35,341 nucleotides of DNA from contig JAJFTD010000186.1 in NCBI GenBank assembly GCA_021373255.1, positions 1 to 35,341 of the forward strand, in the 5' to 3' direction. This DNA is from a bacterium. Its GTDB lineage: Bacteria; Armatimonadota; UBA5829. The notes under the pieces were generated by a model that worked only from the letters and a program-made list of their open reading frames with translations, was not told the DNA's origin and did not search any database. The position numbers and the translations under genes were made by a program. Shown piece after piece: positions 1,593 to 28,697 of this stretch (its first letter is position 1; each line of letters opens with the position of its first letter).

Positions 1593-1921
1593 CTCTGAAT
1601 AAATGTTACTGGCTTGATTGCACGCTATACCTGGCCTGACAATCCTTTCGATTCTTTACTTTTATTATGTGAATTAGGACGAGGGGGTGGTGATCCAGAT
1701 TAAACCAGAAGTGCAACAACACAGCTTTAGATGTCAGATGTGGCCGGATTTTTATCTGATATGGTTGTTGTAGTTCTAGAATCTCGATGCTGGCATTGTC
1801 TGGCGTGACAATTGATTCTACTGTGAAGACAGGCGCTGGGCGTAACTCATGCCATATGGCATCACGTTGTATGCCCAGCACTAGAATCTCTGAATATTGC
1901 GCACGGAAAGGAGAGAGTGGA
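1593..1921 (+). other. Long structured 5' leader of the GH99-like gene
   Basis: This untranslated leader contains another CCAGATTA (1695-1702), an inverted GGCCACAT half-site (ATGTGGCC, 1738-1745) and a nested hairpin. In the hairpin GCTGGGC (1835-1841) pairs with GCCCAGC (1873-1879), enclosing the perfect 14-bp palindrome ATGCCATATGGCAT (1849-1862). The hairpin ends 42 bases before the start codon. An in-frame ATG at 1787 lies in this stretch but has no ribosome site, and the extra 45 residues would precede a good signal peptide, so I treat the stretch as non-coding. Confidence 0.5.
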
Positions 1922-4900
1922 GTGATAATTACTAAGAGAAGTGTTTTACTTATCTCAATGTGCTGCATGGTCTTGTGCATGATGTGCTCAGGCGCCATGG
2001 CGTTAAGCACCAAAGTAATGGCTCATTATTACGCCTGGTACAGCAATAAGTCATTTGAGGGCTATTGGACGCATTGGCAAGAGAATGACCACAATCCGAA
2101 TGTAGATGACATTAGTGCTGCGTTCTGGCCTGCAACAGGAGCGTTCAGCGCCAAAGACCCGCAGGTTCTCCAGCAGGATATGAAGGGGCTGAGAGATGCG
2201 GGTATCGGCACGATAATCTGCTCTTGGACGAACAACTACGACGATGAGAATCTCGCCGCCTTGCCAGTTTTGAATGCCGCGGCTCCTTATGGGATCAAAG
2301 TTTGTTTTCTCCTCGAGCCTTATGCATGCACCACGGCTCAGCAGATGATCGATGGGGCCAAGTACATAATCGATACATACGGCTCGCATCCTGCATTCTA
2401 TCGCGAGAGCGGTAAGCCTTTGTTCCTCGTTTACAACTCTGGCAACTACAGCGCTTCCGAATGGGCAGCAGCGATCGATCCCCTTGACGGGACTGGTTAT
2501 GAAAGCACATTCCTGGCGGAATATCTTTCTTCAAGCACTACCCATAGTCTAGTTTTGAATGGCCATTTTGATGGAATCTTCACCTACGCTCCAAACAGCT
2601 CAACTAACCCAAACACCTGGGCAAGTGAAGTAACATGGGCTAATTCGAACAACAAAATGTTCTTGCCTGGAGTCTCTCCGGGTTATGACGATAGACAGGT
2701 ACGTTCACCTAACTCCTATGTTCTGCGCAACGGCGGAACATTTTACAACACCAACTGGTCAAAGGCTGTATCTTCTGGCGCGACCTACGCTGCGGTTATA
2801 TCCTGGAATGAGTGGCATGAGGGCACACAGATTGCTCCTGCAGTGCCAAAGACTATAGATACGCGAACATATCAGGACTACACTCCAGATATACCTACCT
2901 GTTATGTTGATCAGACAAACAGTTGGGCGGCGATCTTTGACTCAGGCAACAGCGGCGTAATTCAGTGTGAGAACTACAGTGGTGGTACTTCTGCAGTCGA
3001 GGGAACAGACTACCACGATACCACAACTGGTAACGCCGGTGGTCAGTATCGCTCGCAGAATGTAGACATTTACACATGCGCTGAGGGCGGATACTATGTT
3101 GGATCGACCGTTGCGGGAGAGTGGCTGCGCTACACGGGCATCTCCATCCCGACCGCAGGCGACTACGATATCCGCGCGAGGGTTGCATGCTCTTCCAGTG
3201 GTGGTAGCCTGCGAATATGTGACGGCTCTACCAGCAATACGATTTTGACACTGTCGGTCCCATCGACAAGCAGCCGGTGGCAGACTATCTCCGGCACCGC
3301 AACCTTGAGTGCCGGTACTCACACCATCTATCTTGCCGTTGATAATGTCGGCTTCGATATGAACTGGTTTGAGATCCGGCCGCATATAGTCGATGCCGTA
3401 ATTCCGACAGTCGACACGATCACGTTCGACCCCGCGCCTGGAACATACAACACACCGACATGGTTGAGTATGGCTACTACTACTCCAGGTGCGACTATTC
3501 GCTATACCACTGATGGAACTAATCCCAGGATGAACACTCTGGGCGTATATACTACCCCGAGAATGATAAGCAACTCGACTTTCAAGGCTCGAGCTTGGGC
3601 TCCAGGATATATGCCGAGTCCTATCACCACTGGAACTTACGCCTATGTAAGCCCTGAAACTTGGGATTGGGGTTTCAGCACTTTTGAATCGACTTTGAAT
3701 GACATAAGCCTGATAGATAGTGCTGCCTACGCTAATGATGTATACAGTGGGAACAGGGGCTGTATTCGTGTATCTCCATCAACTACTGATGTTATGGGGA
3801 GCGCATGGTATGTAAACAAGGTCAATGTTTCCAATGGGGATGCAGGCTTTGCCACTGAATTCTGGTTCTCTATCGACGATGTTAAAAGTGGTGGTGCTGA
3901 TGGGCTGTCTTTCGTTATGCAGAATACCGGAAACTTTGCTGCACAGGGCTATTACAACGGCAGCGTCTCGGTGAAGTTTGATACCTATCAGAACACTGGT
4001 GATCTCAGCGACAACTCTGTCAAAATCACTGGGTATGGTAAAAACCAGTGGGAGAATATTGCATGTGATCTTACCCCATTAGGCATTATGCTCAAAGACA
4101 GTTCACCGCATCTTGCAAGGATTGAGTATGCCTATAAGAATATGACGGTGATTCTGGATGGAGTGCGCGTGCTTTCTATGCCGATAGACTTGTATGCGTT
4201 TGATGGTTGCGATGCAAGCGGCAATGCATGGATCGGTTTTGAAGCTAACAGCGGCGCTGTGTGTGAGAACCACGACGTCCTCGAATGGCACTTTAAATCG
4301 AACTTTACTTCTGTTGCTATTCCATCCATCCATCCCGGTGGCAGTATATATGATTATGCTCCTAATGTAGTTATAACAGACGCTACGGATGGTGCTACCA
4401 TCCATTACACGACTGATGGCACAGCTCCTACCGAGGCAAGCCCTGTGTATACAGCTCCGATCTCGGTAAGCAGCAGTGCTACTCTTAAAGCATTTGCCGT
4501 AAAATCCGGCATGCCCTCGAGTGGTGTATCTTCTGAGAGCTATGTGATTCAGAGCCCCGAGAGATGGGACTTTGCTTATTCGCCTGACTTTACCGGTTAC
4601 ACGAATCTGAACCTTGGGTACCACGCGGTTGTGATGAACGATCCAGCTACCACGGGCTCTGAGAACTGGGTACGGATGAATACAACTGATCCGGGCTCAG
4701 CCGGCACTGCATGGCGTTCGACGAAGATGCTCTGTGTGAACGGCTTTACTACGCAATTCCACTTCTTGATTAACAACATTATCGGCAGTGGTGCGGATGG
4801 CTTCTCGTTCAATGTTCAGAACAACAGCAGTTGGGCTGGTGGCTGGGCTTATGGGTCCGGTGATAACTCGCTGTCGATAAGATTCGATACTGCTCAGGGC

Positions 4901-6706
4901 GGCGATGGTGAGATAAGCGGTGAGTTTGTTGGTATCAGAAATGGTAACACCACTGTTCTAATGCAGGATGTTGCCGGACTTGGTATCAACTTCGAAGATG
5001 GTAAACTGCATGTTGCCCGAATCGAGTATACGGCAGACGGTAAGCTCTCGGTTTACGTTGACGGCATACTTGTGGTTGATAACTTTGAAATCACCCTGGC
5101 TGCATGTAATGCTATTGATGCGAACGGCAATGCCTGGGTAGGGTTCTTATCAAGTAACCCCAATGCTGCTGTAGGCGAAACTCCCTGGTTGAAGGACTGG
5201 AAGTTCAGGTATCAGCATTCCACAACCCCGCCGGTTTTCCAGCCCGATGGCAGCATATACGACTATCCTCAGAGTGTCTCGCTTGTGGCGCCTTACGTTG
5301 ATGGTGCTGTGATTCGATACACCACTGATGGCTCAACTCCAACCGCGACCAGTGCAATATACTCGTCCCCGATTGCAGTGAACAGCAATACCACGATAAA
5401 GGCAATTACTACCAAAGCTGGTATGCCCGACAGTGTTATGTCCACTGCGAACTACGTGATTCAGAGCCCCGAGGTATGGGACTTTGCGTATAAACCTGAC
5501 TTCACTGGTTATACAAACCTGAACATTGGTTACAACTCGGCCGTGCTGAATTCCCCGAGTATCACCGGCGACCAGACTTGGCTGCGGTTGAATCCTGCAG
5601 TTGCTAATCAATCTGGAATGGCGTGGCATTCAGTGAAGGTACCGTGTGCCGGTGGCTTTACGACGCAGCTACATTTCATGATAACTGATGCTAGTACCGG
5701 TGGATCTCAAGGCTTTGCATTCAACGTTCAGAACAACGGCCCTTGGGCTGGTGGCTGGGCTTATGGATCCGGTGTAAACTCGCTGTCGATAAGATTCGAC
5801 ACATATCAGAACGAAGGCGAGCCTAGCGGCAGCTTCATCGGAGTCAGGAATGGCAACACCGATGTGACGATGCAGGATGTCACCACATTTGGTGTCAACT
5901 ATGATGACGGCAGAATGCATGTCGCCAGGATCGAGTATACGGCGGATGGGAAGCTCACCATCTACATTGACGGTCACCTTGCGGTGAATAACTACGCGAT
6001 CAGCCTGAGTAGCTGCAACGCTGTTGACGCAAACGGCTATGCTTGGGTTGGATATACATCAAATACCGCAGGTATCTACGAGGCCTATTGGTTGAAGGAC
6101 TGGGCGTTCAGATACGTTCACACTGCAACCGATGTTAATAAGATCACCGATCTGCATGACGGTGATTATGTCCGGTTGATTGGAAAATCGGCGGTATGTG
6201 CCGGAACGACATTCACTGATGGGTTCTTCGTTGAGGAGCCTCTACGGAACTGTGGCATTAAGGTTGTCGCAGGTTCAGGCAGTGGCGTAGAGTCCGTGCT
6301 CAAGGGTGATACTGTTACCGTTACAGGCACAGTGTCCACCGGCAGCGACAATAAACTCTACATCAATGCTTCGACAATCAGCAGAGCAGGAGGCACGATC
6401 AATCCTCTTGGAATGAACAATCGTGCTCTTTCCAGTGTTGATCGCCTGCTCACGAGAATATGGGGCAAAGTTAGCCACATTGATTCCTCGAAGACATTCT
6501 TCTATGTCAACGATGGAAGCAACCTGAGCGATGGTGGCAATTATGCCGGTGTGAAGGTTGACTGCTCTATGCTGACTTCTCCGAACCCGGTTACATCGAT
6601 TGTATCCGGTTTGACCGAAGGGCAGTTCGTAGTAGTCACGGGTGTGGTTGTCAACACGAACGGTGTCCCGACGATCAGACCTCGTGAAGCGGCTGATATT
6701 CAGTAA
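1922..6706 (+). CDS. Exported GH99-like glycosidase with CBM6-like, repeated lectin-like and OB-like modules
   Basis: Start GTG 1922 was chosen over ATG 1787: AAAGGAG lies 9 bases upstream, and the protein then begins with a clean signal peptide (K-R, hydrophobic core, cleavage after SGAMA at residue 27). Of 1594 residues, ~30-330 resemble the GH71/GH99-type (beta/alpha)8 hydrolases. The WNEWHEG motif carries E297 and E300, the EWHE spacing of the paired catalytic glutamates in GH99 endo-mannosidases. Residues ~334-487 look like CBM6/35. Then come three tandem pairs of a chitobiase C-terminal-like module (YTTDGTxP; ~495-577, 799-879, 1103-1181) and an L-type-lectin-like module (~577-797, 879-1098, 1181-1400). 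Two OB-like domains (YVRLIGK..., TRIWGKV...) end the protein. It is presumably a secreted or surface glycan-binding hydrolase; the substrate is unknown, and GH99-like mannan activity is only a lead. Confidence 0.8.
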   Translation: MIITKRSVLLISMCCMVLCMMCSGAMALSTKVMAHYYAWYSNKSFEGYWTHWQENDHNPNVDDISAAFWPATGAFSAKDPQVLQQDMKGLRDAGIGTIICSWTNNYDDENLAALPVLNAAAPYGIKVCFLLEPYACTTAQQMIDGAKYIIDTYGSHPAFYRESGKPLFLVYNSGNYSASEWAAAIDPLDGTGYESTFLAEYLSSSTTHSLVLNGHFDGIFTYAPNSSTNPNTWASEVTWANSNNKMFLPGVSPGYDDRQVRSPNSYVLRNGGTFYNTNWSKAVSSGATYAAVISWNEWHEGTQIAPAVPKTIDTRTYQDYTPDIPTCYVDQTNSWAAIFDSGNSGVIQCENYSGGTSAVEGTDYHDTTTGNAGGQYRSQNVDIYTCAEGGYYVGSTVAGEWLRYTGISIPTAGDYDIRARVACSSSGGSLRICDGSTSNTILTLSVPSTSSRWQTISGTATLSAGTHTIYLAVDNVGFDMNWFEIRPHIVDAVIPTVDTITFDPAPGTYNTPTWLSMATTTPGATIRYTTDGTNPRMNTLGVYTTPRMISNSTFKARAWAPGYMPSPITTGTYAYVSPETWDWGFSTFESTLNDISLIDSAAYANDVYSGNRGCIRVSPSTTDVMGSAWYVNKVNVSNGDAGFATEFWFSIDDVKSGGADGLSFVMQNTGNFAAQGYYNGSVSVKFDTYQNTGDLSDNSVKITGYGKNQWENIACDLTPLGIMLKDSSPHLARIEYAYKNMTVILDGVRVLSMPIDLYAFDGCDASGNAWIGFEANSGAVCENHDVLEWHFKSNFTSVAIPSIHPGGSIYDYAPNVVITDATDGATIHYTTDGTAPTEASPVYTAPISVSSSATLKAFAVKSGMPSSGVSSESYVIQSPERWDFAYSPDFTGYTNLNLGYHAVVMNDPATTGSENWVRMNTTDPGSAGTAWRSTKMLCVNGFTTQFHFLINNIIGSGADGFSFNVQNNSSWAGGWAYGSGDNSLSIRFDTAQGGDGEISGEFVGIRNGNTTVLMQDVAGLGINFEDGKLHVARIEYTADGKLSVYVDGILVVDNFEITLAACNAIDANGNAWVGFLSSNPNAAVGETPWLKDWKFRYQHSTTPPVFQPDGSIYDYPQSVSLVAPYVDGAVIRYTTDGSTPTATSAIYSSPIAVNSNTTIKAITTKAGMPDSVMSTANYVIQSPEVWDFAYKPDFTGYTNLNIGYNSAVLNSPSITGDQTWLRLNPAVANQSGMAWHSVKVPCAGGFTTQLHFMITDASTGGSQGFAFNVQNNGPWAGGWAYGSGVNSLSIRFDTYQNEGEPSGSFIGVRNGNTDVTMQDVTTFGVNYDDGRMHVARIEYTADGKLTIYIDGHLAVNNYAISLSSCNAVDANGYAWVGYTSNTAGIYEAYWLKDWAFRYVHTATDVNKITDLHDGDYVRLIGKSAVCAGTTFTDGFFVEEPLRNCGIKVVAGSGSGVESVLKGDTVTVTGTVSTGSDNKLYINASTISRAGGTINPLGMNNRALSSVDRLLTRIWGKVSHIDSSKTFFYVNDGSNLSDGGNYAGVKVDCSMLTSPNPVTSIVSGLTEGQFVVVTGVVVNTNGVPTIRPREAADIQ
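3404..6120 (+). repeat. Three tandem ~0.9-kb coding repeats
   Basis: Units starting near 3404, 4318 and 5229 each encode one YTTDG-containing beta module followed by one lectin-like domain. Units 2 and 3 are the closest: both encode SPExWDFAY, GYTNLN, WAGGWAYGSG, NSLSIRFDT and VARIEYTADGKL at matching places, with long near-identical DNA around 4815-4895 and 5725-5805. Unit 1 is clearly diverged. This suggests stepwise duplication, with the copy that made units 2 and 3 being the more recent. Confidence 0.85.
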
Positions 6707-6717
6707 ATGAAAAATAG

Positions 6718-6749
6718 TAGCGAGAGAGGGGCATGCCCCTCTCTCGCTA
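6718..6749 (+). terminator. Perfect 32-bp palindrome after the GH99-like gene
   Basis: TAGCGAGAGAGGGGCA and its exact reverse complement abut with no spacer, so the RNA can form a very stable hairpin of up to 14 bp with a CATG loop. It lies 11 bases after the stop and 45 bases before the pseudopilin start. There is no following U tract, so it may be a partial terminator, an mRNA 3'-end stabiliser or a cruciform site rather than a standard intrinsic terminator. Confidence 0.65.
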
Positions 6750-6794
6750 TAGACAAGGATGGTTTTGGTTGTTGGTGATGAAGGAGGGCTTGCT

Positions 6795-7613
6795 ATGAAA
6801 AATGCGAGCATGAGGAAAGGTTTTACACTTATTGAGCTGTTGGTTGTTATCGCGATCATCGCGATCTTGGCTGCGATATTGTTCCCTGTGTTTCTTAAGG
6901 CGAAGATGAAAGCGCAGCAGACTATGTGCTTGAGTAATATGAGGAGTCTTGGGAACGCGATAACACTGTATCTAGATGCCAATAACGGGGCGCTTTTTGA
7001 TCAGACTGCAACAACTAAGTTTAGATACCAACCCGGCCAATATTCGAATCCATTGGGAAGTATGTGGATAGATAAATTCTCGCATCGATATAAAGAGAAA
7101 AAAAATGATGGAAAGATTGTGCCTGCGGGCATGGCAGTACCACTCATGAAGTATCTAAAGAACCTTGAGGTCTTCAAATGCCCATCAGAATGGAGAACAA
7201 GGCCGCCCGATGTAAATAACTATATAGGAGGCAATAGCTCAACTGATGCATATTTATATGGATCGACCTATTACTACAAACATGCCCTGTGCTACTATGC
7301 TAATGAGCATGCCCGCCCTACTAAGTTATCAGATATTATGTATCCAACCCGTGTCACCCTTCTTTACGAGGAAGACTGGCACAGTGGCAGTGGAAGACCA
7401 TTCTTCTGGGATCCCAAATATTATGCAGATAAGCCGCGTCCGAACAAGACGGTAGGAGTGGTATTCGTTGACGGGCATGTAGGCAAAATAGTTGTACATT
7501 TCGGTACATCCAGCGGATATGATGGTAACTGGTATGCATACGGAAATGGAAAGGATGCCGCAGGATTCGGTTATTACAGTGACGTGTCTAAGGGTGCACG
7601 TGACGTAGAATGA
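6795..7613 (+). CDS. Type IV pilin-like (pseudopilin) protein, DUF1559/H-X9-DG-like
   Basis: Start ATG 6795 is preceded by AAGGAGGG at 6 bases; the earlier ATG at 6759 has no such site. Of 272 residues, the N-terminus [16 protein letters not shown] is a class III prepilin leader cut after the glycine, with the usual +5 glutamate and a single hydrophobic helix, followed by a coiled-coil-like [21 protein letters not shown] segment. The C-terminus keeps VFVDGHVG, the DGH element of H-X9-DG proteins, but the histidine expected ten residues before DG is not there. Such proteins are abundant in Armatimonadota, Planctomycetes and Lentisphaerae; their roles are mostly undefined, and proposals involve T2SS-like pseudopili or surface display. 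It probably shares an mRNA with the regulator that starts 6 bases later. Confidence 0.85.
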
Positions 7614-7619
7614 GGGTGT

Positions 7620-8816
7620 ATGAACAAGAGAAGCATTCCTGAAGTTCGTACGATGGCAGTGGAGAAAGTCCGCAATCTTGTGGTTGATTATATTAACGAT
7701 AAGGGTCTCGAACCAGGCGACAAGATTCCATCTGAGCGCGTGTTGTCCGAGCACCTGGGTATCAGCCGTACAACGATTGCGAAAGCTATGGCAAGTTTCA
7801 TTGATGAGGGTATTCTTGTGCGTAGAGAACGCTCTGGGACTTATGTGCATGGAAATATGCTTGAGTCTCAAGTGAAGAATGAGTCATCAACGATTGCCGT
7901 AGTCATGCCCTGGCTGAGTGAAGTTGCGCCAGGGCAGTTGGACTGCCCAACAATTCAAACACGTGTTCCGAAGCAGATACCCAGCAGAAGGGATACATTG
8001 GCGCTGCAAGTGGCTCATGGGGTGCTTGCATTTGCCCAGGATCACAACTGCAGGGTTGTGGTGAAATCGTACGATTGGATCCACAGTGAATTTGAAAATA
8101 TCTGCAGTGGCTCTCGTGGAGGCATTGATGGCGCGGTCGTTATTCCTGAGTATATGGCTGAGCATTCCCCACATTATGAAGCCATTGTGGAGTCAGGGTT
8201 TCCACTGGTTTTTGTGGACCATTATTATCCCGGAGCCAGAATAGACTCTGTTGTGACTAATAACATATCTGCTGCACGTGATGCGACAAGGTTTTTAATT
8301 TCGCGAGGCCATAAGAGAATTGCGTTCTTTACAGACTTCGTGTGTGTTGTGAGCTCGACCGTTGATCGTGAGACCGGATATAAGATGGCGTTGGATGAAG
8401 CCGGTATAGATTACGATGAGGATATCATCCGCAGCCAGGAGATCGTGCGGAACGGTACGTGGAGTTATGAGCTTGCACTGGAGCATTGCCTGAATCTTAG
8501 AGATCCCGTTACAGCGGTCTTCTGTGCAACTGATGAAGTCTTGCTCACTACATACGCATGCATGTCGAGAATGGGAATACGTGTCCCCAATACAGTCGAA
8601 CTGGTCGGCTTTCTCGATGAACATATACCTGAGATGATGTTTGCCCCGTTTACCCGCGTGGTACAGGATACATATGGACTTGGAATGAATGCCGTGCGTT
8701 TGGTTCTAGATCGGGTAGCAGAAAATGCCGCACGCGAACCTCAGCACGTAGAGCTTCCTGGGGTGCTAATGCCATCGATCATCGAGGCAGCTCCGGTATT
8801 ACCCAGACTTGCTTGA
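7620..8816 (+). CDS. GntR/LacI hybrid transcriptional regulator (copy 1)
   Basis: 398 residues. Residues ~10-80 form a GntR-type winged helix (YINDKGLEPGDKIPSERVLS, then ISRTTIAKAM as recognition helix and LVRRERSGTYV as wing). From ~90 to the end there is a LacI/periplasmic-binding-protein-like sensor domain (GAVVIPEY, GFPLVFVDHYY, SRGHKRIAFFTD, VTAVFCATDEV). This is the architecture of Bacillus subtilis AraR, a sugar-responsive repressor; the effector here is unknown. ATG 7620 lies 6 bases after the pseudopilin stop, with GAGGG overlapping that stop. It is paralogous to the gene on the opposite strand at 8741-10000, and the two 3' ends overlap by 76 bases. It probably controls the surrounding glycan genes. 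Confidence 0.88.
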   Translation: MNKRSIPEVRTMAVEKVRNLVVDYINDKGLEPGDKIPSERVLSEHLGISRTTIAKAMASFIDEGILVRRERSGTYVHGNMLESQVKNESSTIAVVMPWLSEVAPGQLDCPTIQTRVPKQIPSRRDTLALQVAHGVLAFAQDHNCRVVVKSYDWIHSEFENICSGSRGGIDGAVVIPEYMAEHSPHYEAIVESGFPLVFVDHYYPGARIDSVVTNNISAARDATRFLISRGHKRIAFFTDFVCVVSSTVDRETGYKMALDEAGIDYDEDIIRSQEIVRNGTWSYELALEHCLNLRDPVTAVFCATDEVLLTTYACMSRMGIRVPNTVELVGFLDEHIPEMMFAPFTRVVQDTYGLGMNAVRLVLDRVAENAAREPQHVELPGVLMPSIIEAAPVLPRLA

Positions 8817-10000
8817 TCTTCGTTCCAATTGGATATTTCGGTATCGTATGCACACGGCATCAACGTAGCCGGAAGTGTAATTCGCTGGATTTCGGATGGC
8901 GCCTTATTCGATATGCGTTCCAGGACAAGGCGTGCGGCTGTCATTCCCATGCCGTAGGTGTCCTGGACAACGCGTGTGAATGGAGCCGCCATCATATTCG
9001 GCATGTATTCATCGTAGAAACCGGCTATTTCGAGCGTCTTATTAATCTCTATCCCCAGTTTAAGGGCAGATTGATATGCCGTAAGCAGCGTTTCATCAGT
9101 GGAGCAGAAGATTGCGGTTACTGGATCCTTAAGGTTCAGGCAGTGTGACAAAGCGAGCTCATAGCTCCATGCATTGTTACGCATAATCTCCTGGCTTCGC
9201 ACTATATCTTCATCATACTCTATACCGGCATTTTCGAGTGCTTCCCTATAACCCTGCTCGCGGTCAACAGTGGAACTTACGACACAGACAAAGTCGGTAA
9301 AGTAGGCAATGCGCCTGTGGCCCTTTGATATAAGATACTCGATGGCTTGGCGAGCGGCTGAAACGTTGTCTGTGGAGACAGAGTCTATCTTGGCCTCAGG
9401 ATAATAATGATCAGCAAAGACCAACGGGAATCCGGATTCAGCCATAGCTTCGTAATGTGGGGAATGTGATGGCGAGTATTCAGGAATGACAACCATGCCA
9501 TCGACTTCGCGGAACGATCCGTTGATTATATTTTCGTATTCGGTATGGAGCCAATCATACGATTTTACTACGACTTTACAATCGCGCTCCTGCGTAAATC
9601 CCAGAACACCGAGTGCGACTCTCATCGTCATTACATCCTGCCTCGGAAATCGCCTGGGGACTTTGGTCTGTGATATGTCAAAGTTAATGGATCCGTTAGC
9701 ATCTTGCTTGAGCCAAGGCATAACGACGGCAATGGTCGGCCTGTCGTGTTTGTGATATGTGTTGAGACCCCCGACATACGTCCCCGAACGCTCCTTGCGC
9801 ACAAGGGTTCCGTTTTCAATCAATTCAGCCATTGCCTTTGCGATAGTAGTGCGGCTGACTTTAATGCGGCTTGAGAGCACGCGTTCGGCCGGAATCTTAT
9901 CGCCTGGTTCGAGGTTGCTTTCGTGGATGTAATTGACTATGAGTGCTCTGACCTTTTCAACGGCCATTGTGCGGATCTCAGGGATTGGTTTCTTGTTCAT
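8741..10000 (-). CDS. GntR/LacI hybrid transcriptional regulator (copy 2)
   Basis: Start ATG at 10000 is chosen because MNKKPIPEIRTMAVEKVR matches the start of copy 1 (MNKRSIPEVRTMAVEKVR); an in-frame ATG at 10030 would add ten residues that copy 1 lacks. 419 residues: GntR winged helix, ~10-80, then a LacI/PBP-like ligand domain. Similarity to copy 1 is high throughout, including the almost identical segment FTDFVCVVSSTVDRE. After LPATLMP it carries about 30 residues that copy 1 does not have, encoded partly by the strand opposite the end of copy 1. It has its own promoter (10046-10074) and is divergent from the lyase gene, the usual layout for a regulator and its target. Autoregulation is plausible. 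Confidence 0.88.
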   Translation of the reverse strand: MNKKPIPEIRTMAVEKVRALIVNYIHESNLEPGDKIPAERVLSSRIKVSRTTIAKAMAELIENGTLVRKERSGTYVGGLNTYHKHDRPTIAVVMPWLKQDANGSINFDISQTKVPRRFPRQDVMTMRVALGVLGFTQERDCKVVVKSYDWLHTEYENIINGSFREVDGMVVIPEYSPSHSPHYEAMAESGFPLVFADHYYPEAKIDSVSTDNVSAARQAIEYLISKGHRRIAYFTDFVCVVSSTVDREQGYREALENAGIEYDEDIVRSQEIMRNNAWSYELALSHCLNLKDPVTAIFCSTDETLLTAYQSALKLGIEINKTLEIAGFYDEYMPNMMAAPFTRVVQDTYGMGMTAARLVLERISNKAPSEIQRITLPATLMPCAYDTEISNWNEDQASLGNTGAASMIDGISTPGSSTC

Positions 10001-10045
10001 AAATATACCTGTTTGGCTCTGATCTGTCACGTTACAACCATTCAG

Positions 10046-10074
10046 AGTATATCATATAGAATGGCCACATGCAA
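10046..10074 (-). promoter_or_regulatory. Promoter of regulator copy 2
   Basis: On the minus strand a -35 TTGCAT (10074-10069) and a -10 TATACT (10051-10046) are separated by 17 bases. The spacer contains the inverted GGCCACAT-type site, so the regulator could bind its own promoter. Confidence 0.6.
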
Positions 10075-10219
10075 CCAACTAAGGGCTGCAGGGCACTGAG
10101 CCATGCCATATAAAACAAGGATTCACAACGTCTGAAAAGGCCAGCCAAGCGGCATATCTGCAGCCTCACCACGAACAATATAGACCAAGGATCTTTATAC
10201 TTAGTAGAGCCTAAAGGTG

Positions 10220-10248
10220 TTGACAGGTAAGCATGCCTGTGGTATAAA
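10220..10248 (+). promoter_or_regulatory. Sigma70-type promoter of the lyase gene
   Basis: A perfect TTGACA (10220-10225) and TATAAA (10243-10248) are 17 bases apart. The context GTGTTGACA ... GTGGTATAA copies that of the promoter at 1513-1541. The leader to ATG 10391 is about 135 nt. Confidence 0.78.
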
Positions 10249-10260
10249 ACAGGCAAACAT

Positions 10261-10301
10261 ACCAGATTAGGCCACTCAGGAGCTGGTGGACCGATGTGGC
10301 T
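10261..10301 (+). promoter_or_regulatory. Putative operator at the lyase transcription start
   Basis: ACCAGATTAGGCCAC (10261-10275) is at the same place relative to the promoter as ACCAGAGCAGGCCAC before the GH99-like gene. GCCAC at 10271-10275 faces GTGGC at 10296-10300, giving a dyad of the GGCCAC half-site. The position over or just after +1 is what a repressor site would have. Confidence 0.6.
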
Positions 10302-10390
10302 GCAATTTTGATTTATAAGTGCTGAGCATGTGTTAATCTGGACAGATATGCATCGAACGAAAAGCGAATAAAAACAGAGGAATAAACATT

Positions 10391-11716
10391 ATGCCACATA
10401 GTATTTGTAAGGAACTAGTTCTTGTTCTGTTGTTCGGGTTCTTGCTTTCGCAGATGGTATTAGCTGCTGGTGAGAGTCATAGAGGCCACTATAATGTGGA
10501 TACATTCGGCGCTAAAGGCGATGGGAAAACAGATAACACCAAATCGTTCCAGAAGGCCCTTGATGCAGCATCGAAAGATGGCGGCGGAATAGTCGATGTG
10601 CCTACCGGTCAGTTTTTGATCAAGGGACATTTGAATATTCCGAAATATGTAACTCTAAAGGGCACCATGCAGGCCCCTCCTGCCGCTATGCCTGTTGGAA
10701 TCGACAACCGAACCGAGCGCGAGATAAGTGAGTCCATGACCAATTGCAGCACTCTACTGGCTGTAGAGAACAAGGGTAATGAAGATGGAACCCCTTTCAT
10801 TCAGATGAATACACAGAGCACCATCACCGGCATACGCATCTATTATCCTGATCAGAATGATACAAACCCCATACAATATCCGTGGTGCATCAGGGGCAGC
10901 GGCGATAATAATTCGCTGATTAACGTAATGGTGCTGAACCCCTGGAAAGGAGTCGATTTCGGAACAAAAGAAGTCGGCAGACACTATATACATGGGCTGT
11001 ATGGTCAGCCGCTTAAAGTCGGGCTCTATATATCACGGTGTTATGATGTCGGTAGGGTCGAGGATGTGCATTTCTGGTGCTTCTGGAGTTTGAAAGCTCA
11101 GGATTGGACCAGAGAAAACGGCGTCGCATTCATGATCTCGCGCACTGATTTTCAGTTTGTCAGCAATTCGTTTTGCTGGATGTATCATATAGGATTTCTC
11201 TTCACGACTGGAGACATGGGCCCGGCGGGTTGTGGAGGCGTGATGCTGACCAATTGCAGTGCCGATGGCCAGGGGTTAGGGGTTGTGATTGAAGATTCCC
11301 AGTGGCATGCGGGCATTACATTCAACAACTCCTTCATCTGGGGGAAAGTCATTGTGAAACCGACAAACCACGGGCTGGTGCGTTTCAATACTTGCACTTT
11401 CAATCCATCAGCCATTGATCCGGCGCATAACATTGAGGCTTCAGGCAATGGAGATGTGAGCTTTAACCAGTGCAACTTCATATATAGAACGACACCGTCT
11501 ATTGTCGCCGATTGCCGGGCACTCAATGTCTCCAGTTGCGAGTTTATGGCGCTTGAAGACTGCCAGGATCGGCCAAAAGATTATGAAGCTGAAACCATTC
11601 AGCTCGGCGCTAAACTAAAAGGTGCTACAATCCTTGGGAATCGCTTTAGGATGAACTCGAATGTAAAAAATGAATCACAGGGAAAAGTGGCAATCGACAA
11701 TAATATTGTATATTAG
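10391..11716 (+). CDS. Exported pectate-lyase-superfamily (right-handed beta-helix) protein
   Basis: 441 residues; ATG 10391 has AGAGGAA 8 bases upstream. An N-terminal signal peptide (ELVLVLLFGFLLSQMVLAAG) is followed by YNVDTFGAKGDGKTDNTKSF and GGGIVDVPTGQFLIKGHLNIP, the characteristic opening of Pectate_lyase_3 / GH28-related beta-helix proteins. The remainder has repeated short beta-rung patterns (SFNQCNF, SSCEFMALEDC) and several cysteines. No catalytic residues can be named with confidence, so it could be a lyase, a hydrolase or a binding beta-helix. Its promoter and operator resemble those of the GH99-like gene. Its TAG stop is also the first three bases of the repeat element at 11714-11878, which separates it from the GH31 gene that it probably co-transcribes. 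Confidence 0.82.
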   Translation: MPHSICKELVLVLLFGFLLSQMVLAAGESHRGHYNVDTFGAKGDGKTDNTKSFQKALDAASKDGGGIVDVPTGQFLIKGHLNIPKYVTLKGTMQAPPAAMPVGIDNRTEREISESMTNCSTLLAVENKGNEDGTPFIQMNTQSTITGIRIYYPDQNDTNPIQYPWCIRGSGDNNSLINVMVLNPWKGVDFGTKEVGRHYIHGLYGQPLKVGLYISRCYDVGRVEDVHFWCFWSLKAQDWTRENGVAFMISRTDFQFVSNSFCWMYHIGFLFTTGDMGPAGCGGVMLTNCSADGQGLGVVIEDSQWHAGITFNNSFIWGKVIVKPTNHGLVRFNTCTFNPSAIDPAHNIEASGNGDVSFNQCNFIYRTTPSIVADCRALNVSSCEFMALEDCQDRPKDYEAETIQLGAKLKGATILGNRFRMNSNVKNESQGKVAIDNNIVY

Positions 11717-11878
11717 CCCGCATTATTCGTGATGAGATGGAATACCGCACTAATACCTCTCGCAGTTTCTGCGAAACTGCTGTCGGTAAGACCTGCGGTG
11801 TTTCGGGAACTTGTTCCCGAAACGGGAGACGCGCGATAGCGCGTAGAGGTATTCGGTTAAGGTGAATAATGCGAGCTA
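11714..11878 (+). mobile_element. MITE-like inverted-repeat element, long copy (165 bp)
   Basis: Ends are imperfect inverted repeats, TAGCCCGCATTATTC at the left and GAATAATGCGAGCTA at the right (one mismatch in 15), flanked or ended by TA on both sides, as for IS630/mariner-type target duplication. Inside are GCAGTTTC-TGC-GAAACTGC (11762-11780), a perfect 11-bp hairpin GTTTCGGGAAC/GTTCCCGAAAC (11800-11823) and ACGCGC-GATA-GCGCGT (11829-11844). A shorter copy lies inverted at 25045-25157. No protein is encoded, so it would be non-autonomous. Its first bases TAG are the lyase stop codon. Confidence 0.75.
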
Positions 11879-11909
11879 GAATGTGATCAAGCGGGAGGTA
11901 AACTAGAGA

Positions 11910-13997
11910 GTGGGTATTGCTGCTGCAGAGAGAGTAGAAAGTGGAATATGGAGAATCAGGCTCGGTGAACCTGAAGAGCTTACCCCTGTGCGCTTTCGTA
12001 CCGCTGAACCGATGTCGGAGGCGCTGTCGGCTCTTCCGGGTTGTGAACTTCCGTTTACGGAAGAAAGTATCAACTTTCGGACCAGTCGCAGGGGATGCGT
12101 TTTGGAACTGCCATTAGTCCCGGGCGAACAGATCTATGGCTTCGGACTGAACTTGCGTGCGTTCAACTGCACCGACACAAGAAAGACAATCCGCGTAAGT
12201 GACGACCAGACTGGAGACGCAGGCGATTCTCATGCGCCGGCACCGTTCTATGTATCCAACAAGGGATACGCGGTATTTGTGGACACGGCTCGATATGCCA
12301 ACTTCTATTGCGGCAACCTCTCCAAGGCAGTTTCAGCCGGTTCTACCAATAATGGTTCGGCTGCAGCCGCTGCCAGCACTGAAGAGTTATATAAACCGCG
12401 GGAGTTGGCGTCAAAGATGATGGTTGTGGACGTGCCGGTGGCGCAGGGCGTGGACCTTTATGTGTTCGGCGGCCCGGCAATGCAGCAGGCGATTCAACGC
12501 TATATCCTGTTTTCCGGGGGAGGGGTATTGCCACCTCTGTGGGGGCTGGGAGTTTTTTACAGAGCTTATACGAAGTCTACTGCCGACGATGTCACCAGCA
12601 TCGCGGAAGACTTGCGGCAAAACGGCATCCCTTGCGATGTTATGGGTCTTGAGCCCGGTTGGCAATCGGCGGCGTATTCATGCTCGTTCTCCTGGGGCAA
12701 GGAACGCTGGCCTGATACGCAAGGGTTCATAGATCATATGCGCGGAATGGGCTACCAGCTCAACCTTTGGGAGCACGCCTTTACCCACCCGAGTTCGCCG
12801 CTTTTCGAGCCTTTAAAAGACCATTCAGGAGACCATCTGGTCTGGGGCGGATTGGTCCCGGATTTTGCTGATGCTGGTGCTCGTGATACTTTCTGCCAAT
12901 ATCACCAAGAGCAGTTTGTCAATAATGGAATTTCAGGCTTCAAACTCGATGAGTGTGATAACCAGCCGCTCAGTGCCAGACCATGGTCGTTTCCTGAACT
13001 CAGCCAGTTTGGTTCGGGCCTCGATGGCGAGCAGATGCACTCGCTCTTTGGCCTGCTCTACCAGCAAGTTATGAATGCATCTCTTAGGAAAAGCAACGTG
13101 CGGACTTATTCCAAAGTCCGGGCCTCTCACGTGCTCGCCTCGCCACTGCCCTTTGCGCTCTACAGTGATGCATATAACCACCGTGATTTCGTGCGAGGAA
13201 TATTGACCTCCGGTTTCTCCGGGGTGTTATGGAGCCCTGAAGTCAGGGAGTCCGAATCAGTCGAAGAGCTTTACAGGCGTCTTCAGAGCAGTGTACTCTC
13301 TGCCCAGACCGTTATCAATGCGTGGTATCTGAAGAGCCCGCCGTGGCGTCAGATAGAGACAGAGAAAAACTGCAATGGGGAATACATGCCGGGCTGGGAG
13401 GAAGTGGAGCAGAGGTGCAGGCGGATACTGCAGCTCAGAATGCGTCTGATTCCGTATCTGTATTCCAGCTTTGCCGAGTATCGCTACAAAGGCATTCCAC
13501 CATTCCGGGCGCTTGTGGTCGATTACCCTGATGACCCGCAGACTTACAATCTGGATAACGAGTACCTGATAGGAAATTCACTGCTCGCTGCTCCGGTCTT
13601 TGCCGGGGAAACTGCGCGCACCGTATATCTTCCCGCGTGTGGATGGTATGACTTCTGGACTCACTCGAAGTATGAGGGCGGAAGAGAGTATGAGATCAGC
13701 GTTGACCAGGAGCATGTGCCACTGTTCGTTAGAGCTGGGACCATTCTCCCTCTGGCTGAACCGCTGGAGTACGTCGGGCCGGACTCAGTATTCGACGTAG
13801 CCTGCCTTGTCTTTGGTATGTCTCCAAGCCCTACCACTCTGTATGATGATGATGGCGTCTCTCTGGACTACGAAAACGGGCTCCAGAATGCAATCACCCT
13901 GAGCTGGACACCCGAGTCAGGGGGTTCGATAGCAAGCCAAGGTGGATTTAGTGGCAAAAGCCGCTACCGAGTCGTGGACTGGAAGACTATAGGCTAG
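11910..13997 (+). CDS. GH31-family alpha-glycosidase, cytoplasmic
   Basis: 695 residues from GTG 11910, with GGGAGGT about 10 bases upstream. There is no signal peptide. The N-terminal beta-sandwich (~1-200, GEQIYGFGLNLRAFN) leads into the (beta/alpha)8 barrel: LWGLGVFYRAY, then GISGFKLDECDN with the expected nucleophile D347, then LYSDAYNHRDFVRG, where D420 is the likely acid/base, and GFSGVLWSPEVRES. A C-terminal beta region has VPLFVRAGTILPLAEP and LYDDDG, both typical of GH31 (alpha-glucosidase, alpha-xylosidase and relatives). Substrate preference cannot be read from the sequence. It lies 193 bases after the lyase stop, with only the repeat element and the ribosome site between, so it is probably on the same mRNA and acts on imported oligosaccharides. 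Confidence 0.88.
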   Translation: MGIAAAERVESGIWRIRLGEPEELTPVRFRTAEPMSEALSALPGCELPFTEESINFRTSRRGCVLELPLVPGEQIYGFGLNLRAFNCTDTRKTIRVSDDQTGDAGDSHAPAPFYVSNKGYAVFVDTARYANFYCGNLSKAVSAGSTNNGSAAAAASTEELYKPRELASKMMVVDVPVAQGVDLYVFGGPAMQQAIQRYILFSGGGVLPPLWGLGVFYRAYTKSTADDVTSIAEDLRQNGIPCDVMGLEPGWQSAAYSCSFSWGKERWPDTQGFIDHMRGMGYQLNLWEHAFTHPSSPLFEPLKDHSGDHLVWGGLVPDFADAGARDTFCQYHQEQFVNNGISGFKLDECDNQPLSARPWSFPELSQFGSGLDGEQMHSLFGLLYQQVMNASLRKSNVRTYSKVRASHVLASPLPFALYSDAYNHRDFVRGILTSGFSGVLWSPEVRESESVEELYRRLQSSVLSAQTVINAWYLKSPPWRQIETEKNCNGEYMPGWEEVEQRCRRILQLRMRLIPYLYSSFAEYRYKGIPPFRALVVDYPDDPQTYNLDNEYLIGNSLLAAPVFAGETARTVYLPACGWYDFWTHSKYEGGREYEISVDQEHVPLFVRAGTILPLAEPLEYVGPDSVFDVACLVFGMSPSPTTLYDDDGVSLDYENGLQNAITLSWTPESGGSIASQGGFSGKSRYRVVDWKTIG

Positions 13998-16618: not shown

Positions 16619-16766
16619 ACAACAAAATAGGTCACAGAAAAATGGTCCCCTCTTAGTAAAACACAGTGACCTTCGTACGATGTCTCCGGCTGCTATCCCC
16701 AGCTATAATGATGTGTATTAAGCATTACCCAAGCGCACTAGTAGACTGACACTGGGGGTGATCGAC
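16619..16766 (+). promoter_or_regulatory. Upstream region of the giant membrane protein gene
   Basis: TATAAT at 16704-16709 is a likely -10 box; the 17-base-spaced hexamer TGTCTC (16681-16686) is a poor -35, which would fit an activator-dependent promoter. AGGTCAC (16629-16635) and GTGACCT (16666-16672) form a 7-bp inverted repeat upstream, a possible binding site. No terminator for the kinase gene is obvious. Confidence 0.35.
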
Positions 16767-19700
16767 GTGCATGACACGAATGACTGGCTTGACAAGCGTT
16801 CTCCAGACTTGGACAAAATTGGCTATCTGCTCCACGAGCTGGATAAGTGGGTTGGAGAAGGCGTTCTTACCAGAGACACCTATAATGATCTGAGCCGGCG
16901 CTATAAAGCCGAGCAAACGGAGATCCTGCGGCTGGGCCGCGTGAATAAACTCCTTGTCGAAGCCCGGTCCGCGCAAACACAACGTCGTTTTGCTGATGTT
17001 ATCAACAAAGCGATGGAAGCAATTGAGCTTGATCAGGGTAACATAGAATGCACCTATCTCCTCGCCAGTGCCTATGAAAATTTAGGTCAGTATGCCCAAG
17101 CCCTTTCAGCTTATGAATCACTGGTCACACTCTGCCCTGGTGATGCTGCGTCCCAGAACAGTGTCGTTCGGATTCGCGAGATACTGGAGAAGCAGACTCT
17201 CGCTCAAGCGCGTGAAGAGGAGCGATTACGGCAGCAGCGTGAACAAGCCGAAAAGATGGAACGCCTCAGACAGCTCAAAGCACCTGAACTGGCAAGCCAG
17301 GCAAATGAAGCACTTGCACAAGGCAGATTTACGGATGCGCTCGATGCTGCTGTTGAATCTATCAAATATGATCCACAGAATACGGAAACATGGGCGTTGA
17401 TAGCTCGGATCTACTCTGCACAGGAGATGTGGGTCCAAGCCGAAAAAGCATGGATTAAGGCCGTACACCGCAACCCCAATGCCGAATATCAGGACGAGTT
17501 GGCTAAAGCTACTGCGGCTCGGACCTACCAGGAACGCTCGATCTGGAGCAAGCTCTGGGAGAAGGGCTCGCAGGCCGTGGAAGCATTCATGGAAGAACGA
17601 AACGTCCAGTGGGTTCATCTGCTGGGCGCGGCTATCCTGCTGTCGGGCCTTATTGGTGTAAGCGCGTGGGTGGTCACTGTTCAAAAGCTCTGGGGAATTG
17701 TCGGCCGGGCTCTAGTCGCGGTCGTGCCGCTGCTTTTGACTGCAATGTTTTACTATGCCGGATGTAAGCTGAAGTCGGTGCTCAAAACAACAGCGACATC
17801 ATTTCATATTATCGCCTCGGCTCTGCTGCCCATAGACCTTGTGATGATGAAGCACTTGTTCCCGAACACATTCATGTGGAATTGGGATCGTCACCTGTTT
17901 GCGGTGGGTCTTATCTCCACGCTGGTCTATGCCCTCATGCTTTTTGCTATACGAAGCAGAGTCCTAACGTCCCTTGCCGGTGCCGGGTTCCTGGCAACCA
18001 GTTTCTTCTTCATGCGCGGCTTCACCAGCCTTTCTCCCAGCAGCCAGGGTTTATGGTTCTCTATAGTTGGCTTTGGCTACATGCTTATGGCACGCTGGAT
18101 TCGACGCAGAGGTTGGGAGCCGCTTGATACTCCTCTTAATGTCCTGGCTCACACGGCTATGGCAGTGGCACTGGGCAACTCGATGATCGGTGGCCCCTTG
18201 GCGCATGCGGGCGGGTTAGGAGGAGCATCCTGCACCATACTTGCAGTAAGTCTGGCTTATGTCCTCGCGGCGTATCTGCTGGACGAAGCTCGCTACCTGC
18301 CCATATTTGCAGTAGTCCTTTTCGGTTTCGTGGTGTTTGCGTTAAGATCACATGGAATGGGCATTGGTCGATGGTATTTATATGGATTCTCATTTGGTGT
18401 TGTGGGTAGTGCATTCCTGGCGATGGCACCCATCAGCCGCGCACAGGACAAAGACAGATTCGCTGCATGGTACCAGTGGTTTGGCCTTTCAGTCACAGCG
18501 ATAGCAATAATTCCCGCACTGGTGCGAGGCCTAGTGCAGGCAGCTACACTACAAACGTTGCCATCTGGCCCGGAACTACTACCAAGCATTCTGACGTGCC
18601 TGATGATCAGTGTGTCATACGCCGCATGCAGCGTGTGGATGAAAAAGCCCCGGTTGATTTATGGCGCCGCAGTGGTTTTCATCTATTCCGCTGTGTTGAC
18701 AATCAAACTGGCATCGCGGCCAACTTATGAATACACGGTCTGGATGATGCTGCTTGCCGCGATTATGGCAGTGTCAGGCTGGTACCTTACGAGGCGTTAT
18801 AAAGAACACGGCAGTGCTGTCTTCAACACGGGTATAGGGCTCTCGGCACTTTCAGGAGCGATCTCTATAGGAATGTGGGCTTACCAAAGCATTTCATTCG
18901 AGCATATAAACCCCGGATACTGTGAAGCAGCCATACTGGTAATGTTCATATCCACCGCACTCTACGCATTCGCTGCACGCACTACACGCCGGGTGGCATA
19001 CATTAGTGCCGCGATTGTGTCGGGTGTTCTGGGATGGGGAACTGCATTCTCGTGGTTGGATGATCGCATCCTTGTATCAGTGCTGGGAAGAGAGGTCAAC
19101 TTCGGCCTCTACTACCTGCCGCTTGTTGTATCGCTTGTATGGATGAGGCGGGTGTTTCAAAGAAGAGGCAACGCTGAGTTCGCGGTTCCGTGTGATGTGT
19201 TCTCGTTCTTGTTGTCAATCGGTGTGTTGGCATTACAAACCCGCTACCTAGCAGAGCCCGGCGCGATGCGTCACAGCCTCTGGGTGACTCTAGCTCTCTA
19301 CTCGGCTATATTTGCCTGGCAATCGTTGGATAGAAAACGCGAGAATTTGCTTGGCACGGGCCTGAGCAGCGCATCAGTCTATGCTTACCTGTCTATTGCA
19401 GCATTCTGCGGCGCGGCGTTCCATGTGCTGGATGGAGTAGGGCTATACCACAGAATCGGATTCGTTGTGATCAGTGTCCTGCTGCTAATTGCCGCCTGGG
19501 TGCTCTTCCGGAAGCGTGAGAAAATATTAGCTAAAGCTCCATTTATCGTGGGGCTGGCTATCCTTTCGATTGATATCCTGGTCTCGATATCCATGTGGCT
19601 TGATTCACCGAGCGCATCGGATAGGTTGGTCGCATTTATAGTCACAGCCACGGCAGCCGTTGCCTGTGCCACGACTTCCGCGGTCCTGCGTAATTGGCGA

Positions 19701-22700
19701 TACCTGTGCCCTGCTATGCTGACCCTATCCATTGCCTATGGATTGGCTGGAGCACAATGGGTCATGCCTCAAATTCCTGCGATACATGTGAATTATGGTA
19801 TCTGGTATTGGCCATTGGTTATGATGTTGGCTGTTTGCGGACACATTCTACACAAGAAACAGCAGTCGAGCTTCGCGTGGGTCCTGCATTCTACTGCCGC
19901 CGTGCTTGCCGTTATCTCGCTGTGCCTGCAGTCTAATTACTCAATTCTCTCCGCGTTCATCGCATTCTTTGCCTATGGATTGCTCCTCGCTTGGGTTTCA
20001 ATGGCGGCAAGGACGTGGGCAGAGGAGAAGATAGCCAACACTCTCAGCCAGGGATCAGCCTATTTTATGGCAGCTTTACTCGGCATCGGTTGGCTGCTTC
20101 TGTTTGAGTGGATTGGTGACATCACATCCAACCATACTCTCTACAGGACAATCGCAGCTTTGACCGGAGTGGCCTGGTGCCTGATTTCGTTCAGAATATC
20201 CGTGTGGATGTCGAGCCGTGATTGGGAGTGGTGGGCACGTCCGCTGTTCTGGTCTGGAGTAGTTGCGGGAGTGGCGTGGACTGTGTGGCCGGTGGTTTGT
20301 GGCCAATCGGTTTTCCCGCTGTCACTGGCAACATGCACGCTGGCGGCTATCTTCTACACGTGGATTGCATCGAATCACGGAGACAAATCGTTTGCCTACG
20401 TGGGAATGGGCGTATTCGCTGCAGGATATATGCAGGTGTTCCTGGCGCAAGGCGGTTTATACGCCGCTCCTGCACAGCTCGCCTTGTTCTCGCTGGCCCC
20501 AATCGTGCTGGCTCTGTGCGTTGGGTATATGAGCGCACTGTTCCGGTCGCGCGAGCTTGCCTATGTGACAACAGTTGTGGCAGAAGGGTCCTGTTTCTTA
20601 TTGTTAAGGGCAGGGGTAGAAGCCACCAAGGTACACGACCTGGGGTGGTATGGACTTGGAATAGTCGTGGTCGGGTTTACGGCGTTCTTGGTGTCCCGCA
20701 TTTTAGCAAAAGGAGACTTGAAAGATCTCGCGATTGCGCCTGCGCATGGTAGTGACCTGGCTACGACCATTGCCGCCATAGTTGCTTGTGACGTTGCCGT
20801 TTCGACCAGTGCGCACAATAACTGGATTATCATCGCAACTTTGGCTATCTGTGCTGCAACTTATGCGTTATCAGCCTGCCTGCGTAAGCATCCTAAATTC
20901 CTATACGCCGCGTGTGTGGCTGTAATTATTGGGTGGGGGATGGCCATTGATCGCATGCCGACCGACTTCGCTCAGGACAACTATGTCTTGCTCTACTTGC
21001 CGTTGGTTGTGATTCTTGGGGCACTGGCGTACGGCATTCGCAGTAGAGATCGCATAGGATTATCAAAGCCACTTTGGCGGTCCGCAATGACGCTTTCTGT
21101 CGGTTGTTTCCTCTTGCAGCTTGCTTTTAACATTATGTCCCCGCATGAACTTCGAGGAGTCGCGACATTTATGATTTTTTCGGCTCTGTATGCTACTGCC
21201 TCTTACATTGATCGAAAGATCAATGCTCGTGCGGAGATGCTGACATATTTCTCTTGCGCATCATTCGTAATAGGCATGAATATTCTCCCACTCCCACCTT
21301 ACATGTTGGCACATGTAGATCCTGTGATTGCGTTAGCACACTCCGTGCTCGGCGCACTGTGGGTGGGGGCAACGGTTTATTTGCAGTCCCGCTCCCGGAC
21401 GACCTGGACACGTCCTCTACTTATCTCGGCTGGTGTTGTAGAGGCAATTGCTGTCATGATCGCAATTAGTGCTCCATTGCGCAACATAGGATGTGCAGTT
21501 GCCACTATTGTTATCGCCGCCTCAGTATTTACATGGATAGCAAATAGGACTGGAAAGCGTGCTCTGATATACGTGGCGGGATGTACTGCGCTGGTAGGCT
21601 TGGATCTCATAGATACCGCTCCGGGCAAATGGGCCGCTCTTCTGTCGGTGCTGATACCCGCTATTGGTGCGGGATTACTGGCTCAGGCTACTCGTGCCAA
21701 GGAGTATGCGCTCTGGTTCCCGATATTGCTGTGGACTGGATTCATCGCATATATAGTGCATTCTCCGTCCCCGTTGTCCCCGACCCCGGCGTTCTGCGTG
21801 GCCTTCATAATAATTATGGGGATCAGCGCTGTGCTCTTCCATCGGTTGGCGAAAATACATGATCTGCCTGCATTTGAAACGCTCGGAGCACTAGCGGGGT
21901 TGGTCGCGTACTGGTGCGTCCCTGCACTTATGCATAGAGTCATATCTATTGACCCAGTGGAACACATTGCAATAACGCTCCTGCCTTATGCCATGTTTCT
22001 GGCATGGCTCACCTGGCGTCTGAGATCATCTGATGAAAAGCCTTTATACAGGTCGTATGGTGCGGTTGCTCTGGCGTTGTCTATCGTAGGGGCTGCGGCT
22101 GGGGTGGCGTCTGGCGAGAGCTTAATGACACGAACGGTGACTCTAGCCCTGTACACATTAGCATACCTTGTGACCACGGCAAAGTTTGGCTCAACAAGCC
22201 TTGTGTATATAACAAACGCGAGTGCGCTTGTTACATGGTTTATGCTCTATCTTGCTTTGGAACTACCGTCCATCCCCGATGGATTACCATGTCTTGGTGC
22301 ATGGTTTGGGCTATTTGGAGTTATCCAAGTTACCTTGGGTGCCGCATTCAACAGGGTTAAGAAGTGTTCTCAAACGGCAGATATACAATGCACCATTGGC
22401 GCAACGCTCTGCTCAGTGTCGGCCCTTGCGGCGCTGTTTGGCACTTTGTCTACACGAATGTTTGGGGAATGGACTATTGCGGTGCTGTTGATAAGCACAG
22501 TCGCAAACAGCACAGTTGCAATGGTTCGCCGCCAGCTTAGTCTCCTGCACGTTGGGTTTGCCGGAGTGCTGATCAGCCTGTATTTGATATTCTATGATAA
22601 GCTGGACTTGAGAGTGCTGGATATCTACGCTCTCCCGATCGGTATCTATCTTCTCGCGCTGCCGGCGATAAGCCGTTATGTCGGTCGACAAGTCCGCCCG

Positions 22701-23069: not shown

Positions 23070-23108
23070 CACCTGCAGCAAAGCCGCAATGCTGCAGCAC
23101 AAGGTGTT
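23068..23108 (+). terminator. Stem-loop after the giant membrane protein gene
   Basis: CTGCAGCA (23073-23080) pairs with TGCTGCAG (23090-23097), and AACACC (23068-23073) can pair with GGTGTT (23103-23108) across a small bulge. No U tract follows, so it may be a weak terminator or an intercistronic processing structure. Confidence 0.4.
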
Positions 23109-23178
23109 CTTGAATCAGATGAGGGCTGAGGAGGGTAAACATCTGTGGTCGCTGTCGTTCATTATTAAGGTCGCAATC

Positions 23179-25031: not shown

Positions 25032-25044
25032 ATTATTTCCTCCT

Positions 25045-26833: not shown

Positions 26834-26836
26834 CGA

Positions 26837-27739: not shown

Positions 27740-27742
27740 CTT

Positions 27743-28633: not shown

Positions 28634-28674
28634 ATTCCTCTCCTCATTCTCAAGTTCACTTACGAGTTTACCTG

Positions 28675-28697
28675 AGTCAGATTACAAGAACCTTACA
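28675..28697 (-). promoter_or_regulatory. Pho-box-like direct repeat before pstS
   Basis: On the minus strand TGTAAGGTTCT is followed at once by TGTAATCTGAC, two TGTAA repeats exactly 11 bases apart, and a CGTAA follows 33 bases from the first. The 11-nt period is that of PhoB sites. The block matches the one before the porin gene in 17 of 23 positions. Confidence 0.6.

Follow-up and report, generated by a model that had tools for sequence, protein, structure and literature searches.

A modular GH99 protein with three L-type lectin units and a tandem OB-fold tail in an Armatimonadota genome

The window, that is, the whole 35,341-nucleotide stretch that was analysed (contig JAJFTD010000186.1; Armatimonadota, UBA5829), holds on its plus strand an open frame at 1787-6706, with 1,639 codons. 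Read from the GTG at 1922, it gives a protein of 1,594 aa (1922-6706, +), to which all residue numbers below refer. This is the likelier start, and the one already used in the first-pass annotation, because the purine-rich, RBS-like stretch ggaaaggagag lies upstream of it and a hydrophobic segment resembling a signal peptide opens there. The protein is probably secreted, and its modules follow the order signal peptide, GH99, CBM6/35, three CHB_HEX_C/L-type lectin pairs and two OB folds:

1922..2002, + strand: signal peptide, residues 1-27 (RBS-like ggaaaggagag upstream; hydrophobic stretch ending in GAMA)
2003..2935, + strand: GH99 catalytic domain, residues 28-338 (Pfam E=1e-68; PDB E=1e-57 to 4ad1/5lyr)
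3050..3376, + strand: CBM6/CBM35-type module, around residues 377-485 (CBM_6 E=3e-18; CBM_35_2 E=7e-15)
3404..3661, + strand: CHB_HEX_C_1 module 1 (YTTDG), residues 495-580 (Pfam; HMM built here)
3680..4300, + strand: L-type lectin unit 1, residues 587-793, D660 and N691 kept (Lectin_legB; AF2 model m3040745efbbb)
4319..4564, + strand: CHB_HEX_C_1 module 2, residues 800-881 (Pfam; HMM built here)
4583..5209, + strand: L-type lectin unit 2, residues 888-1096, D959 kept, Asn replaced by G993 (lectin HMM E=4e-61; alignment A3)
5219..5476, + strand: CHB_HEX_C_1 module 3, residues 1100-1185 (Pfam; HMM built here)
5495..6112, + strand: L-type lectin unit 3, residues 1192-1397, Asp replaced by Q1263, N1297 kept (lectin HMM E=3e-67; alignment A3)
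6152..6700, + strand: tandem OB-fold tail of two homologous OB domains, residues 1411-1593 (AF2, VIA, hhalign, family distribution)
6717..6748, no strand assigned: inverted repeat tagcgagagagggg...cccctctctcgcta, read from the sequence, directly past the stop codon and with no T run

The inverted repeat is a possible end of the transcript and, consequently, the gene may form a transcript of its own. Downstream lie a prepilin-like protein, two GntR/LacI-type sugar regulators (7620-8816, +, and 8741-10030, -, convergent, their 3′ ends overlapping), a pectate-lyase-like protein and a GH31 protein; no mannan cluster was found among the neighbours of the gene. A third regulator of the GntR/LacI type adjoins the C55 lectin paralogue of the same genome (L025:6844-8010). 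Farther along the window, an ORF of 2,103 aa (16758-23069, +) has no Pfam domain apart from TPR repeats towards its N-terminus, and is overlapped by an ORF of 446 aa without Pfam matches (22987-24327, +). A phosphate uptake cluster (24372-32658; PhoU, an ABC ATPase, two permeases, a binding protein and a porin O/P-like protein) adjoins a response regulator and a histidine kinase.

The host genome is assembled in 201 contigs, with contamination of 4.6%. A chimeric assembly is an unlikely source of this architecture, as each of the three parts described below (GH99-CBM6 core, lectin clade and OB family) is also represented elsewhere in the genus or order, and a chance origin of the domain matches is excluded by their E-values. 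Matches to NCBIfam (DUF499_antiphage and others) were disregarded, as their scores are far below the cut-offs.

By profile and catalytic motif, the protein is assigned to GH99. The match to Glyco_hydro_99 (PF16317) spans profile positions 2-338 of 341, and the nearest solved structures in a PDB sequence search are bacterial GH99 enzymes, at E=1e-57, and human MANEA, in agreement with the GH99-like N-terminal domain proposed from the first reading. Residues were mapped on an alignment of 85 GH99 sequences, with BxGH99 of Bacteroides xylanisolvens XB1A (L080) as reference. The catalytic glutamate pair of the EW[H/G]E motif, which had also been noticed before, is present in NEWHEG (residues 296-301), where E297 and E300 align with E333 and E336 of BxGH99. 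The equivalents of BxGH99 E156, Y252, Y46, D291 and R295 are retained as well, so that the protein shares the barrel, the EWHE pair and these residues with BxGH99, BtGH99 and human MANEA.

It differs from those three enzymes at two positions. The column of BxGH99 W126, in the -2 subsite, holds Thr103 here, while the 78 comparison GH99s have Trp (57), Leu (20) or Ser (1) and never Thr; the column of H154, the histidine of HIEPY, holds Leu130, a residue equally absent from the comparison set (67 His, 10 Gln, 1 Met). The H[I/L]EPY motif consequently reads LLEPY, with Glu, Pro and Tyr retained. Thus, the GH99 active site, a suggested check on the first-pass annotation, is recovered among the aligned residues in its catalytic pair and the five further residues, but is altered at W126 and H154.

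It has been reported that HIEPY, although common, is absent from some GH99 clades and hence is not strictly defining (PMC11025385), and that human position 189 sets the preference of the -2 subsite, with Trp for mannose and Tyr for glucose (Sobala 2023, PMC11025385). In our GH99 alignment, human position 189 falls in the W126 column, and Thr103 would therefore predict neither preference. As the Trp at 126/189 that marks the endo-α-1,2-mannanase class (Tyr in the glucose-preferring endomannosidase) is a threonine in this protein, we have not filed it as an endo-1,2-mannanase, and, with Leu130 also in place of the HIEPY histidine, specificity for mannan is not assured. The changes suggest that the sugar accepted at the -2 subsite may differ from the mannose of the yeast-mannan enzymes. 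They look derived, since a relative from the same order, Armatimonadota bacterium E14_metabat.bin.108 (locus L116), retains the equivalents of W126 and H154 (SWW, HIEPF). The GH99 domain pairs with this relative in the GH99 tree, with weak support (SH-aLRT 82) and on a long branch (1.58).

The first-pass annotation was right about every domain it named, but overlooked the CBM6-type module that sits between the GH99 domain and the first CHB module. In Pfam, this module scores 66.7 bits for CBM_6 (cut-off 28.9) and 55.5 for CBM_35_2 (cut-off 23), so either CBM6 or CBM35 fits. The proposed chitobiase-C-type modules correspond to three stretches of CHB_HEX_C_1 (Pfam, E=7e-50), and the proposed L-type lectins to three stretches above the cut-off of Lectin_legB (PF00139; Pfam, E=4e-26).

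The repeat units have, as far as modelling (unit 1) and profiles (units 2 and 3) indicate, the β-sandwich of the legume lectins. The AF2 model of CHB1-lectin1 has a pLDDT of 78 overall and of 77-96 in the lectin blocks, with poor confidence in the CHB part. Foldseek and VIA-align placed its lectin unit among the legume lectins, for instance next to winged bean lectin (VIA Z 23.5, rmsd 2.4 over 197 residues; model residues 87-302) and the Methanocaldococcus jannaschii protein 7elv (VIA-align Z 22.6). That the repeats might not be lectin-like, the outcome named in the first-pass annotation as refuting it, was therefore not confirmed, either by the profiles or by the structure prediction for unit 1. 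With the L-type lectins at large, including ERGIC-53 and 7elv, the units have the fold in common (Z 22-23.5), and unit 1 also the ADG and FDTxxN motifs; unlike them, the units are fused here to a hydrolase, and one canonical residue is missing from each of units 2 and 3.

The residues concerned are Asp in the ADG motif and Asn in FDTxxN, the monosaccharide-binding residues of legume lectins, and both are present in 90% or more of the sequences in an alignment of 22 prokaryotic lectins. Both are kept in unit 1 only, as unit 2 has no Asn and unit 3 no Asp; units 2 and 3 had been put forward for binding assays, and unit 1 is the one that keeps the full pair. The lectin units seem to have neither the Glu nor the His of the plant manganese site, with K/R replacing E.

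Units 2 and 3 are the closest pair, with 58% identity when their CHB modules are included and 62% over the tree columns, while unit 1 shares only 32-35% identity with the other two. In the lectin tree, the three units form a clade (97/96) with two lectins of one protein from a genome of the same genus (G243) and one from a second protein of the own genome (C55), and units 2 and 3 are nearest to each other (100/99). L-type lectins were found in 46 of 291 genomes of the phylum and, within the own class, only in this genome and G243. None of the 10 other lectin ORFs of the phylum that were scanned, some of them cut by the end of the locus, has a Pfam glycosidase, and one of them is a PA14-CHB-lectin-dockerin protein.

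The best 80 GH99 loci of the GTDB genome collection, among which L074 could not be read as a whole frame, contain no lectin module, and CHB or OB modules occur only in the window protein and L116; most sampled bacterial GH99s have about 370 aa, compared with the eight or nine further modules found here. Within these samples, the earlier remark that L-type lectins are rare in bacterial hydrolases stands. Literature searches, from which subscription papers were largely absent, returned nothing relevant on bacterial L-type lectins fused to hydrolases or on OB tails in Armatimonadota. We regard the protein as a new architecture made of recognisable modules, in a combination not met elsewhere in the survey.

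The L116/L027 protein of E14_metabat.bin.108 (contig JAUSGG010000114.1, G230) has the highest identity to the GH99-CBM6 core among the sampled relatives (44% over residues 5-498, E=3e-131). It is organised as GH99-CBM6-fn3-CHB-OB, with a CBM6-type module in the same place and 52% identical, and it shares the core, CHB and OB with the window protein, but has no lectins. Another protein of the order (L029, G229) combines GH99 with Ig-like modules and an OB tail. Given that the six lectin units form one supported clade, it was probably within the genus that lectins were acquired and then duplicated, which the lectin-free relative in the order also suggests. The simplest history, inferred from a handful of proteins, would be that a GH99-(CBM6)-OB protein of the order gained lectin-CHB repeats from the lectin proteins of the genus itself.

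As a separate observation from the survey, a GH99 domain of Planctomycetota (L091) is fused in frame to a CinA/molybdopterin-binding-like protein, an odd fusion that length alone suggests for L092, L104, L106, L107 and L121 as well.

The OB-like tail of the first-pass annotation is confirmed as an OB fold by structure prediction, but consists of two homologous OB domains instead of one. The halves match each other in hhalign at E=2e-8, and the AF2 model of the tail has a pLDDT of 88. Against known OB folds, the first half reaches VIA Z values of up to 12.7 and the second of 12.0, with rmsd of 2-3 over about 90 residues. For modelling, the lectin (A3) and the tail (A4) were aligned separately, as a joint CHB3-lectin3-OB alignment misplaced the OB rows. 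The tandem module falls outside Pfam coverage, and the OB matches there are weak: tRNA_anti-codon reaches E=0.003 in the window protein and is found in 8 of 36 members of the tail family, with a best value of 2e-5, below the cut-off. The list of structure matches contains no closer OB family, which does not in itself point to a new fold. Neither a Pfam family nor a paper on the role of the tandem-OB tail was found in the searches made.

The tail is the most unexpected part of the protein. With the window tail as the sole query, copies were found in 24 of the 28 genomes of the class, with at least 39 in the own genome and at least 50 in G221. These counts are lower bounds, as the profile (A4) finds more copies; for instance, it gives at least 92 matches in a 5.5 Mb genome of the same order (G314/G230, e.g., L202), many of which sit in ORFs 600-2100 aa long. 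When 161 genomes were drawn evenly across the phylum, all 20 positives at 1e-5 came from the own class. Among 36 GH99-bearing genomes of other phyla, profile A4 gave one or two weak matches in each of five (best 1e-9), one of them in a protein with Endonuclease_1. As far as sampled, the tail family thus appears to have distant kin outside, but to be amplified only in one class of Armatimonadota. Of 47 ORFs whose end is intact, 35 carry the tail at most 15 residues from the C-terminus, and the other 12 carry it internally. The complete carriers of the own genome start with a signal-peptide-like sequence, and the other domains of carriers include beta-helix, CBM4_9, carboxypeptidase-regulatory-like and GxGYxYP domains.

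Putting these modules together, we consider the protein to be a secreted, single-chain GH99 endo-α-glycosidase acting on glycans that contain α-mannose, targeted by its lectin and CBM modules and bearing a tail common to much of the secretome, with a probability of roughly 0.55. The GH99 barrel would cleave internal α-linkages of such glycans. By the route described for the family, which passes through a 1,2-anhydro sugar (PMC11025385, PMC12394665), E297 would remove the 2-OH proton to form this intermediate, with E300 as the acid/base. Binding of the enzyme to its glycan would fall to the CBM6 module and, at the least, to lectin unit 1, the CHB modules may serve as spacers between the lectin units, and the tail would have a task that is not specific to the substrate of this enzyme, such as keeping the protein at the cell surface or within the matrix, or exporting it. 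Use of α-mannosides by the host is consistent with, although not proven by, nine GH38 α-mannosidase matches in its genome, where no GH92 was found, and by a region (L200; G000:C163, 8000-25676) in which an OB-tail protein is followed by three consecutive GH76-like ORFs (3493-13303), each with a weak score of about 50 bits. The latter could possibly be an α-mannan locus.

The residues Thr103 and Leu130, at otherwise conserved positions, also agree with a domain that is GH99-like in action but whose rebuilt -2 pocket takes a different α-glycan, for instance a glucosylated or substituted glycan of an alga, a plant or another bacterium. The neighbours point the same way, being GH31, the pectate-lyase-like protein and two GntR/LacI-type regulators and not a mannan cluster, and a distant GH99-like enzyme from Prevotella, which has DYGE in place of EWHE, showed no activity on whole yeast cells (PMC13421300). 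However, the catalytic machinery is retained and the GH38 matches in the genome are numerous, and a different substrate seems to us the less probable, if serious, alternative. The protein might instead be mainly an adhesin, in which a slow or inactive GH99 fold, the lectins and the CBM bind glycans. Both glutamates and the surrounding residues have been kept despite the long branch, which makes an adhesin improbable, even though there are several modules of sugar-binding type, two pocket residues are changed and no catalytic Pfam domain is seen in the paralogues that carry these lectins (that of C55, truncated where its contig stops, and those of G243). An α-mannose-directed endo-glycosidase thus remains our preferred reading, and the unusual pocket makes the specificity of the GH99 -2 subsite directly testable. 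Additionally, GH99 is known chiefly from gut bacteria and the Golgi, and its union with plant-type lectins in a single bacterial polypeptide offers a natural case in which to ask how an endo-glycosidase is served by several lectins.

The tail is the more novel thread. It recurs dozens of times per genome on secreted proteins and is concentrated in a single class of a phylum with hardly any cultured members, which points to a common function at the surface or in export. It recalls the type IX tails and PEP-CTERM in its C-terminal position and its many copies per genome, but is made of two OB folds of about 180 residues and is sometimes internal, whereas those are an Ig-like domain or a short motif. 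An ordinary type IX sorting domain received no support from a search for SprA_N, of the type IX translocon, which gave no match in 28 genomes but none in its controls either, and no sorting machinery was identified for the tail. Nucleic acids or oligosaccharides are frequent ligands of OB folds, and the tail could well be a binding module for extracellular DNA or polysaccharide instead of an anchor or sorting tag; this falls somewhat short of even odds in our estimation. Its internal position in 12 of 47 proteins and the distant relatives in extracellular-type proteins of other phyla, one with Endonuclease_1, would fit such a role, while the great diversity of the carriers and the strong C-terminal bias are more like a general tag. 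The boldest version, in which the tail is an undescribed, lineage-specific export or anchor tag for much of the secretome and the GH99-lectin enzyme belongs to its cargoes and has gained a new specificity through a rebuilt -2 subsite, is speculative and rather doubtful.

In four loci of the own genome (L184, L185, L187 and L188), the OB pair is followed by a common module of about 220 residues that ends in a motif resembling VTGY.DNVR.GT.DGT.VYNFE.
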